Positions 13,320 through 17,284 of a stretch of DNA of 64,000 nucleotides are shown in pieces. Numbering within the stretch: the stretch's first letter is position 1; the number at the start of each line of letters is the position of its first letter. The notes beneath the pieces are model-generated. The model was not told the DNA's origin. It ran no database searches and saw only the letters and a program-made list of their open reading frames with translations. Position numbers and translations under genes: made by a program. The stretch is from Tetradesmus obliquus (Eukaryota; Chlorophyta; Chlorophyceae; Sphaeropleales; Scenedesmaceae): the NCBI GenBank assembly GCA_030272155.1, contig CP126193.1, positions 2,356,001-2,420,000 of the forward strand, in the 5' to 3' direction.

Positions 13320-14722
13320 GGTTGACAGGGAGGCTGCTGCTGCTGCAGGCATACGTTGTGTTGCACCACGACAGGCCAAGTCGACTTTGAATCTGTCCAA
13401 TGCTGGCAGAACACCAACCAGCAGGCTATCAGCTAGCTTGCAGCAACAGTGTGTACTAGCCAGCCAGCCGCTTGAATGCTGCAAGGCTCTGCCATCTAGT
13501 GTATGCATCACACTGCCACACTCATCACCCCCACTGCTGTCACTGCTGCTGCTACTGCTGTTTGCAGGACGACATGGAGGTGGCGCACAACCGCGCAATC
13601 GACCATCAGCTGCAGCAGCTGTACCACGCCCTGGGCTTAGCGCTGGCCCTCAACCGCACGCTGCTCATGCCTGCCATGGCCTGCCTGTGTGTGCGGGGCT
13701 GGTTCCCGAATGAGGCCTGCAGGCTGCCAGGGGACAGCCGCAGCAGCCTGCCTTTCCGCTGCACAGGAGACCAGGTGGGAAGGGTGGGAGGAGGATGGGA
13801 GGTGGTTGGCAGCACAGGCAGAGGATTGCTGCAGATGCTGCTTGCTAGTTGAGATAATTGTGTACAAGCAGCAGCGGCGCAGGCAAGATGCACCGATTGC
13901 ACTTACGGCGCACATGCAGCACGTACACACAGCATACCTGTTGCCCTGCCAATCCCAAACATGCTGCTGTTCTGCGAGGTAGAGTTGGGAATTTGCCATG
14001 CCAGTGCTGCATGAGTGCCGCATTGTGCTTGTGTTCCGCAACACGTCTTTGCAATAGCCGTTGCACAAAACTCCTTCCCATCTGGCCGCCTGCAGGTGTT
14101 TAACATTGAGGCGCTCATGCACCCCAACATCTCAGTGGCTGGCAGCGTGCTGCGCGTGCGGCCCCCGGGCTTTGCAGCAGACATCAGGCTGCCTCCCAGC
14201 CTGCAGCAGCAGCAGCAGCAAGGCCGGCTCACAGTCACGCCTGGACTGCCAGCATGCAAGGCAGTTGTGCGCAATGTAATCTGGCAACAGCGCAGGCTGG
14301 CACAATTTGAGCAGCTGCAGGTGCATCACCCATTTGAGATGACTGCAGCAGCAGCAGCAAGTACGCCAGCATGTGTAGAAGAGCAGCAGCTTCCAGAAGG
14401 TGGGAAGCAGCTAGTGATACCGATGGGCCACCCTGCAGAAACTGTTGCGAAGCTGCTGGGCAACTACTCGTCAGTTGCGTGGCTGCACTTGACGAATGTC
14501 ACTGCTGCTTTCAATGGGTTCAAAGCAGCTGAGAGTCAGCAGGCGTTTGAGGGTTTGCTGCGCACGCTCGTGGCGGAGTGGTGCTGCCGCAGCAGCAAGC
14601 GGCAGATGCTGTTGGGGGTGCCGAATGGTCACCTGCATCAGCTGAGGCCGTGGGGTTCACCGCAGCGGTTTTGTGCGAAGCGGCTGGATGTTGTGGACAA
14701 GGTGTACTCGTATTTCTGCTGA
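10220..14722 (+). CDS. XEG113: GT77 arabinosyltransferase, XEG113-like
   Basis: Nine exons, 10220-10340, 10514-11114, 11413-11456, 11825-11982, 12233-12359, 12607-12775, 13019-13277, 13568-13774 and 14096-14722, join in phase to 770 aa. Residues 1-23 form a signal peptide or signal anchor (MQLLLKLLLAVACCILLCA). A Gln/Ala-rich stem of about 150 residues follows, then the nucleotide-diphospho-sugar transferase core: GYNVLLSDIDVMWLADPLPY holds the DxD metal and sugar-nucleotide motif, then MMNTGVYYAR, YTYSVMQLHKL and HMVFGYGHAASK. XEG113 and its relatives add arabinose to hydroxyproline-rich cell-wall glycoproteins in the Golgi. That role fits an alga with a glycoprotein wall, but the substrate here is inferred. 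Identical gene at 59174-63676. Confidence 0.88.
12317..12545 (+). repeat. Tandem copy of XEG113 exon 5 end plus intron start
   Basis: The block starting ATGATGAACACGGG at 12317 recurs 114 bp later as ATGATTAACACGGG (12431), including the following intron sequence down to a TGGTGGTAG tail. In the second copy the donor GGTAAG has become GGTCGG, so it should not splice there. Confidence 0.85.
13282..13318 (+). repeat. CTG tract directly after a splice donor
   Basis: A run of about 12 CTG units begins five bases into XEG113 intron 7. Similar sense-strand CTG runs occur in many introns of the window. Confidence 0.9.
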
Positions 14723-15508: not shown

Positions 15509-17284
15509 ATGGCGAGGACAGCACTGATCGTCCTGGTGGCGCTGGTAAGTAGTCTATAGCTCTCCTTAGAGGCATTTTCATGGCGTTTGCTGCAAGCAGC
15601 ACAGCATGGTCACCACTTGGGAGAGGCTTGTTACAGGAGAAGGCATGGTCACCACTTGTCACTTTCCCACCACTCGACAAGTGTGGGCTAGAAGCTGCCA
15701 GACCACACGTTCTGCAAGCATCTGCCTTTTAGCACAGCGAAGCCGCGCTGCCTAGTTATCCAAAGCGTGGAGGTTATTCATATCAAGCCCCACCACCTGC
15801 CAACAGCTCGGCCTCCTTTTTGACACGTCTCAAATCTGCCATGCAGCTGGCATGTGCGGCACTGGCCACTTGCGCTGCTGAGCAGCAGCAGCCTACTCAG
15901 GCCAAGACAGGTGCTTCCCTTGCACACCCAATGCCAGCTCAGCCACTTGACAGCACAGTCAGGGATAGCGAGGACAACTTGGTGAAAAGGTGGGGCTTGC
16001 CGCAAGCAGAGCGGCGCGGCGCGGCGCGCGCTTGCCAAGTGTGACGTGCACAGTGCAGCTGCTGAAGCAACAGCTGATAGCATAGCAACGCTACACTGGC
16101 TTGGATTACACCGTCTGCAATAAATTGTTGCAGCATCAACGTCAGCATCTGTCACTGCTGCTAACTGCTGCTTCCCTTCCGGAGTGCTACGTGGCTTGTG
16201 CACAGCATGTCTTGTCATAACGTGTCATTGGTGCACTGCAGAGGTCTGTGGCTTCTGCCAAGATCACCAGCAGCTGCCACATCAAGCGCACAATCCCTTG
16301 GCGGGTTGTATTTGTCCTTATCTCTGCTGCTTTACTCGATCGCAGGGTCGAGAAGCCATTCTTTCCGGGTGGCAGGCGCATTCTGACGGAGCCAGATGCA
16401 TTTGGGGCTGCAGGTGAGCAGCTGCAGCACCACACAGCACCCTGATTAGTGCAGCAGCCCTGCAGCCCACACTCTCAATGCACAGAAGGCGCAGCCAGTG
16501 GCGATGTAGCAGCAGCAGCAGCAGTCAACGCAGCAGTCGCCGTACCCCTGCAATATGCAAACAATCATCAGCCAGGCAGCGCCATGGGCTTGCTGCATTG
16601 CATACCATCATGATGTCTGCTGAGCTGGCATCAACCAAGACCAAGCATGAACTCACTGTTTTTGTTCCTCAAAACTCCACGCTGCCCCGCGCAGACGACG
16701 CCCTGGAAGCCTCCCACGTGCGCAGCCTGGCTCAGGTGACAAAGCCAGGCAAGCCAAAGGAAGCAAAGGTTTCCGATGCTGCATCTATTTCTTTCAAGCG
16801 CCTGGAGAAAGGCTATGCTGTACAGAGCCAGGGCCGCAAGCTGGCTCAGGTCACCAAGCCAGGCAAGCCAAAGGAAGCAAAGGTTGCTGATGCTGCGTCG
16901 ATCTCTTTCAAGCGCCTGGAGAAAGGCTATGCTGTACAGAGCCAGGGCCGCAAGCTGGCTCAGGTCACCAAGCCAGGCAAGCCAAAGGAAGCAAAGGTTG
17001 CTGATGCTGCATCTATTTCTTTCAAGCGCCTGGAGAAAGGCTATGCTGTTCAGAGCCAGGGCCGCAAGCTGGCTCAGGTCACCAAGCCAGGCAAGCCAAA
17101 GGAAGCAAAGGTTGCTGATGCCGCGTCAATCTCTTTCAAGCGCCTGGAGAAGGGCTATGTTGTGCAGAGCCAGGGCCGCAAGCTGGCACAGACCAAGCCA
17201 GGCAAGCCAAAAGAGGCTAAGGTGTCTGATGCTGCATCCATCTCCTTCAAGCGCTTGGAGAAGGGCTATGCTGTGCGCCCCTAG
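15509..17284 (+). CDS. Secreted tandem-repeat protein, candidate amidated-peptide precursor
   Basis: My model has exons 15509-15544, 15847-15989, 16346-16413, 16486-16541 and 16625-17284, all in phase, giving 320 aa. The first two exons form a classic signal peptide, MARTALIVLVAL + LACAALATCAA. At the exon 2/3 joint the protein reads KR-VEKPFFPG-GRR. The last exon holds five 38-residue repeats, each with SISFKR-LEKGYAVQSQ-GRK; the fifth ends LEKGYAVRP. Dibasic sites and Gly-Arg-Lys/Gly-Arg-Arg are the signature of prohormones whose peptides are cut and C-terminally amidated. Peptides would be VEKPFFPG and four LEKGY(A/V)VQSQ. I recognise no family. A basic wall or matrix protein is the main alternative. 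The 16542-16624 intron is the weakest part of the model; the terminal repeat exon is certain. Confidence 0.65.
16727..17284 (+). repeat. Five 114-bp coding repeats
   Basis: Units start at 16727, 16841, 16955, 17069 and 17183 with exact 114-bp spacing. Units 2-4 are nearly identical in DNA, with mostly silent changes. The fifth lacks one codon (LAQTKPG instead of LAQVTKPG) and ends in the stop codon. The DNA similarity points to recent amplification or homogenisation. Confidence 0.95.

Follow-up and report, generated by a model that had tools for sequence, protein, structure and literature searches.

Introduction

To our knowledge, few peptide signals of green algae are known outside the GATI-amide of Chlamydomonas; here we compare with the closest described systems a repeat-peptide gene found in 64,000 nucleotides of DNA from the green alga Tetradesmus obliquus. 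In Chlamydomonas the GATI-amide is active (PMC6919629), its precursor proGATI is cleaved by the subtilisin-like protease VLE1 (PMC10886904), and 360 C. reinhardtii proteins are predicted to yield amidated peptides, four of them eight each (PMC6313938). A different kind of cut is made at R-x-L-x, the cleavage site of mammalian site-1-protease (S1P) and plant SBT6.1 (PMC13082318). AtS1P cleaves RALF23 at INRRIL/ATRRY, for which precursor family a dibasic reading was originally assumed, and SBT6.1 and SBT3.5 cleave CLEL6 and PROSCOOP12, respectively, at similar sites (PMC13082318). RRLL, RKLL, RVLL or RTLL is present in eight of eight processed PMEs of Nicotiana benthamiana (PMC11494411), and C. 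reinhardtii also has an S1P, Cre14.g628800 (PMC6313938).

The T. obliquus gene lies on the + strand of contig C3 (C3:2371509-2373284) in a genome of 104.66 Mb and 17 contigs. The analysed stretch, C3:2356001-2420000 (hereafter the window, G+C 56.8%), supplies the positions given below without a contig name. The original prediction, made from the letters of the window alone, had read the gene as a prohormone-like precursor of amidated peptides. Its multi-copy, coding nature, its predicted signal peptide and the presence of an amidating enzyme in the genome hold up; the dibasic and Gly sites, however, are not all kept in two paralogues on contigs C1 and C9. We tentatively favour, at somewhat less than an even chance, the reading that the C3 gene encodes a secreted precursor holding several copies of one peptide, with cuts at R-x-L-x and, for C3 and C1, also at KR, and with a conserved core as its product.

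The C3 gene and its predicted protein

Four exons with GT-AG introns (15509-17284) join into a single open frame of 278 residues, laid out as follows:

15509..15544, + strand: exon 1, MARTALIVLVAL, first half of the predicted signal peptide; donor GTAAGT
15847..15989, + strand: exon 2, remainder of the predicted signal peptide (LACAALATCAA) and start of an apparent degenerate first unit, to NLVKR; last codon split
16346..16413, + strand: exon 3, reading after KR VEKPFFPG-GRR-ILTEPDAF; contains RRIL
16695..17284, + strand: exon 4, RSLA site followed by the unit array and the stop codon
16727..16840, + strand: unit 1, LAQVTKPGKPKEAKVSDAASISF-KR-LEKGYAVQSQ-GRK
16841..16954, + strand: unit 2, with GRK directly before it
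16955..17068, + strand: unit 3
17069..17182, + strand: unit 4, which carries LEKGYVVQSQ
17183..17284, + strand: last unit, LAQTKPGKPKEAKVSDAASISF-KR-LEKGYAVRP-stop; the C1 paralogue stops at the same place (LEKSFSRQP-stop)

The N-terminus, MARTALIVLVALLACAALATCAAEQQQ, is a predicted signal peptide by virtue of one strongly hydrophobic segment at residues 5-19, where the 15-residue Kyte-Doolittle average of the spliced protein peaks at 3.01, as anticipated from the joining of exons 1 and 2; stretches starting beyond residue 30 do not exceed 0.36. The frame also contains everything claimed for it in the way of sites, namely KR-VEKPFFPG-GRR, six KR and five Gly-dibasic sites (one GRR and four GRK), and five of the six KR-started peptides have Gly before their C-terminal basic pair. 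The array had been described as five 38-residue repeats: four units do have that length, and the fifth has 33, with one Val fewer and VRP replacing the VQSQGRK end (TRF: 4.8 copies, 114-bp period, 92% matches). Unit 1 is preceded by VRSLAQ, which has neither Gly nor a dibasic pair.

The units differ almost entirely at silent positions. Within codons 1 to 32 of the units (the lost Val and altered end of the last unit fall outside these counts), 17 codon columns vary, 15 of them synonymously only; at the minimum 19 synonymous and 2 nonsynonymous changes are needed, with 25% of sites being synonymous (P = 6e-10), and pN/pS across the units is 0.041. Because the codon changes are nearly all synonymous, we conclude that the unit encodes protein under purifying selection. 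Its core is constrained at least as strongly as the KR-LEK part, with pN/pS of 0.034 for LAQ...SISF and 0.065 from KR-LEK onward, two values that the few changes leave indistinguishable. A freely drifting spacer would not give such constraint in the core.

Ahead of the array, exons 2 and 3 when spliced align with the repeat unit straight through the splice (score 46, against a mean of 25.7 and a maximum of 57 in 5000 shuffles, 23 of which do as well), retaining both KR-[V/L]EK and GR[R/K]; exon 3 with a few preceding residues aligns weakly by itself (234 of 5000 as good). This alignment suggests that the two exons are a degenerate first unit, and its passage across the exon 2/3 junction supports the predicted splice. 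The recurrence of KR-[V/L]EK with GR[R/K] in the putative first unit, and of KR-LEK in C1, argues for the original prediction. By chance, 405 of 20000 shuffled versions of the 38-residue unit (read twice over) show the KR...G-dibasic pattern, as do 49 of 20000 for the N-terminal part; the array copies are duplicates and not independent occurrences of the pattern.

Contig C3 holds five near-identical copies of the gene, starting at 2337186, 2371509 (the window gene), 2420463, 2472348 and 2506671. Four of them show no difference over 1737 bp, and intron 1 of the window copy is 39 bp longer. Within the 244 kb examined (C3:2306001-2550000, window included) there are segmental blocks of 13.5 to 65.6 kb that are 99.98-100% identical, one block pair of 65,619 bp having zero mismatches. 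The five copies stem from segmental duplication in the very recent past or from an artefact of the assembly, and they carry no evolutionary information.

Paralogues on C1 and C9 and what the family conserves

Gene models for two paralogues were built from open frames and splice borders, and are predicted as follows:

C1, locus L048, from 698: C1 paralogue exon 1, 36 nucleotides, MASTRVAVLLAI
C1, locus L048: C1 paralogue exon 2, then last exon, reading STRPQARKLQQNKPNKPASAKSGDSTNLYFKRLEKSFSRQP-stop
C9:1528893-1524756, minus strand: C9 paralogue, 14 exons, all phase 0, GT-AG, 327 residues; loci L047, L049 and L050

The C1 paralogue has a single unit, which scores 85 against the last C3 unit (shuffled maximum 46; 0 of 5000 as good), retains KR-LEK and has Ala, not Gly, before RK. 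The C9 protein, whose exon 1 is 30 nucleotides long, has a predicted signal peptide followed by seven units VKPDKP[S/T]EKKVADAASIAFGRL[G/D]LRHLLAARPFSSVQTS, the seventh with an altered end, and by a short eighth, TKPSKPTDTKVADAASIAFGRLG-stop; across these eight the core is retained, RHLL occurs seven times, KR and G[KR][KR] are absent and the tail past the core is dissimilar. In all three genes a phase-0 intron, placed after codon 10 to 12, interrupts the sequence coding for the hydrophobic N-terminus. Genome searches with protein queries, in which the best candidates were scored, found no further paralogue better than E 0.13 beyond the five C3 copies, C1 and C9. The C9 unit exons are either fused (117 nucleotides) or split by an intron into 30+87 nucleotides at KK|V, a small natural example of an intron gained or lost among tandem repeats.

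Seven of the 14 units (three of five from C3, one of one from C1 and three of eight from C9, near-duplicates excluded) were aligned across the three loci. The invariant residues, K,P,K,P,K,D,F,R,L, all fall inside the core KPxKPxxxKVxDAASIxF and F[K/G]RL, and for this reason the core, not KR-LEK, is taken as the constant part of the family. Core identity is 14/18 between C3 and C9, 8/18 between C3 and C1 and 7/18 between C9 and C1; in the KR-LEK tail C3 and C1 share 6/11, the C9 tail is dissimilar, and the longest identical run between C3 and C1 is FKRLEK. As far as these sequences tell, what the original prediction treated as spacer is the constant part, KR-LEK is confined to C3 and C1, and only the C3 gene has Gly ahead of the basic pair.

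This bears directly on the amidated products. In neuropeptide-type precursors the sites would be kept while spacers diverge; in C1 and C9 it is the spacer that is conserved. With 0 KR and 0 G[KR][KR] in C9 and no Gly in C1, LEKGYAVQSQ-amide and VEKPFFPG-amide do not emerge as conserved products. Homologues that lose KR and GRK while keeping the rest had been named in advance as evidence against processing at these sites, and the paralogues match that description in part: C9 keeps the core without KR or GRK, but its tail is unlike and C1 keeps KR. Paralogues, as opposed to orthologues, may have specialised, which limits this comparison of KR and GRK conservation.

R-x-L-x sites and processing enzymes in the genome

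R-x-L-x stands directly before all five C3 units (RSLA at the first, RKLA at the other four) and before the one C1 unit (RKLQ), and RHLL is found in 7/7 linkers between C9 cores, with none before the first core. Exon 3 of C3 carries RRIL, identical to the S1P site of RALF23 (PMC13082318). Within the C3 gene too, the feature that accompanies every unit is R-x-L-x rather than GRK, because the site of the first unit has neither Gly nor a dibasic pair. The genome encodes an S1P homologue at C1:5263118-5265085, where 4/4 matches to MBTPS1_4th (PF23090) at one place are over the cut-off (best E 4.7e-22), adjoined by S8 matches at C1:5266170-5267481.

The search for amidating enzymes suggested by the original prediction was rewarded, and that for a convertase in part. 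PHM and PAL exons, in this order, lie in one gene within C4:3113945-3118321 (loci L002 and L025), a bifunctional peptidylglycine alpha-amidating monooxygenase (PAM); three of four tested PHM exons pass the Pfam cut-off, the best match of the PAL exon in PDB is PAM (3fvz, E 6.5e-18), and a putative signal peptide is discernible by eye. Copper type II monooxygenase matches (PF01082/PF03712) occur at five more places (C11:5146265, C11:3554510, C15:2950744, C16:2193582 and C1:4313795-4315688), which could be DBH/MOXD-like. S8 subtilases give 80 exon-level matches and M14 carboxypeptidases 6, but no P-domain of the kexin/furin type was found in a six-frame search, which can miss split exons. This negative is not decisive, since Chlamydomonas cuts proGATI with the subtilisin-like VLE1.

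Database and literature searches

Against Pfam, the C3 protein matches nothing over the cut-off. Two near misses, both with a cut-off of 27 bits, are Ig_RIMBP2 (26.4 bits over 19 residues) and RCDG1 (25.6 bits over 70 residues, the greater part of the profile); they are taken as scores summed over the repeats because a single C3 unit with its flanks matches nothing up to E 1. We treat likewise PcrA_UvrD_tudor (33.9 against a cut-off of 23.9; best stretch 15 residues) and AP5B1_barrel (23.6 against 21.9; best stretch 21 residues), whose cut-offs are exceeded by the whole C9 protein and by no single stretch of it. The C1 protein has no Pfam match below E 0.42. A PDB search with three of the five C3 units found no relative up to E 1, and a search of viral contigs with two C3 units found none. 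Strings from the C3-family proteins were not found in any paper text searched, and by title no entry on this family appeared in the literature on algal RRLLQ motifs, Scenedesmus peptides or chlorophyte peptide precursors. Elsewhere in the genome the pherophorin family has one match over the cut-off (E 4.2e-5), as fits a green alga. Upstream in the window, 13500-14722 holds what look like the final exons of another + strand gene; for its frame 14015-14722, Pfam gave nothing up to E 0.01.

Proposed processing and alternative explanations

In the reading that we tentatively favour, the three loci would encode a family of secreted precursors from which, once the signal peptide is removed, an S1P-like (SBT6.1-type) or related subtilase would cut at R-x-[L/I]-x: RKLA/Q, RSLA/Q and RRIL/T in C3, RKLQ/Q in C1 and RHLL/A in C9. 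The open gene structure, the selection on the unit, the paralogues with what they conserve and the presence of PAM and S1P genes are shown here, whereas secretion, cleavage, the acting protease and a signalling role are inferred. A second cut at KR after the core, in C3 and C1, would leave the core peptide as the conserved product, in C3 (LA)QVTKPGKPKEAKVADAASISF, and the R-x-L-x cut in these two would expose an N-terminal Gln that might cyclise to pyroglutamate. Calculated masses are 2171.195 for QVTKPGKPKEAKVADAASISF (pyroGlu 2154.168), 4084.291 for the 38-residue unit from Q (pyroGlu 4067.264), 2355.316 for LAQVTKPGKPKEAKVADAASISF (RK and KR cuts), 4147.302 for the C9 unit and 3130.677 for the C9 Phe-amide. 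LEKGYAVQSQ, with amidation by the PAM that the genome encodes, would be a further product specific to the C3 gene, the one gene of the three for which such an amide is possible (calculated monoisotopic mass 1120.588; VEKPFFPG-amide, 918.496).

A number of observations weigh against cutting at R-x-L-x. The motif R-x-[L/I]-x is loose, occurring in 9 to 45% of shuffled linkers, and the linkers were picked after the motif had been seen; the C3 and C1 sites are homologous and hence not independent, RHLL of C9 is at a non-aligned position and missing before the first core, and C1 has an extra R-x-L-x (RLLH) distant from its core. Plant subtilases lack a general consensus, an S1P site is found in just 11 of 35 Arabidopsis RALF genes (PMC13082318), and RALL is present in one of four unprocessed N. 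benthamiana PMEs (PMC11494411). That the longest C3-C1 identity is FKRLEK and that exon 3 and the unit have GR[R/K] in common favours dibasic cutting and amidation for C3. The selection seen on the unit is what an uncut repeat protein would display too, and the family is so far represented here by the genes of a single species.

The products first proposed would arise if convertase-like cuts at KR and GR[R/K], carboxypeptidase trimming and PAM yielded LEKGY[A/V]VQSQ-amide four times and VEKPFFPG-amide once, with the core as spacer. We consider this rather unlikely, although the six KR and five Gly-dibasic sites of C3 persist in the degenerate first unit, KR-LEK persists in C1, PHM and PAL share one gene, M14 and S8 families are in the genome, and Chlamydomonas both produces amidated peptides (PMC6919629) and cleaves proGATI with VLE1 (PMC10886904). 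It is hard to square with eight C9 units devoid of KR and G[KR][KR], a C1 unit devoid of Gly, a "spacer" that is the very part conserved across C3, C1 and C9, a first full C3 unit that follows RSLA and not GRK, and a P-domain convertase that the six-frame search, from which split exons can escape, did not find. An uncut, secreted cell-wall or matrix protein of lysine- and proline-rich repeats, its dibasic and R-x-L-x sites incidental or serving one propeptide cut, is in our estimation unlikely. Constraint is similar over the whole unit, the isoelectric points without signal peptide are 10.2 (C3), 10.7 (C1) and 10.8 (C9), and the dibasic pairs of C9 are seven KK only, all of which such a protein would accommodate; yet basic sites near the cores are retained between otherwise diverged paralogues, Pfam gives nothing over the cut-off for the C3 protein, and repetition is dispensable, since C1 has one unit. 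That the same cutting yields a cationic defence (antimicrobial) peptide instead of a signal we regard as very improbable: the precursors are basic and multi-copy, but the calculated charge at pH 7 is just +1.8 for the core and -0.2 for LEKGYAVQSQ, and neither the Pfam search with the C3 protein, at the cut-off, nor the PDB search with three of its units gave a known family.

The favoured reading of R-x-L-x cutting extends to a broader claim that we think distinctly doubtful, namely a new family of peptide signals in green algae, its precursors having between 1 and 8 copies of KPxKPxxxKVxDAASIxF, released by S1P-type cuts like land-plant hormones and finished at the C-terminus in alternative ways (KR trimming in C3 and C1; Gly-Arg, AASIAF-GR, with a possible Phe-amide, in C9). 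If true, plant-type and animal-type peptide processing would be combined in one gene family. One, five and eight copies of one core give exact peptides and masses to seek, and the family may reveal if the cutting of algal precursors follows the plant mode (S1P-type subtilase), the animal mode (dibasic sites and amidation) or both.

Comparison with known systems

Precursors with multiple predicted amidated peptides have already been published for Chlamydomonas (PMC6313938); the C3 gene is a candidate secreted peptide precursor whose processing could follow either plant or animal ways. With proGATI (Cre03.g204500) and other Chlamydomonas amidated-peptide precursors it shares a green-algal host, a predicted signal peptide, basic and Gly amidation sites and PAM; it differs in being a 278-residue array of near-identical units, and the likeness is one of features. 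Animal multi-copy neuropeptide precursors likewise combine a signal peptide with repeated KR...G-dibasic units, whereas the paralogues of the C3 family do not keep all amidation and dibasic sites and a P-domain convertase was not found in the six-frame search. RALF23 and CLEL6 (S1P/SBT6.1) and PROSCOOP12 (SBT3.5) have a signal peptide and R-x-L-x as in C3, the RRIL of C3 being the same as that of RALF23 (PMC13082318); these, however, are not multi-copy arrays of the C3 kind, and RALF products are cysteine-rich; C3 is likened to them by its signal peptide and sites.
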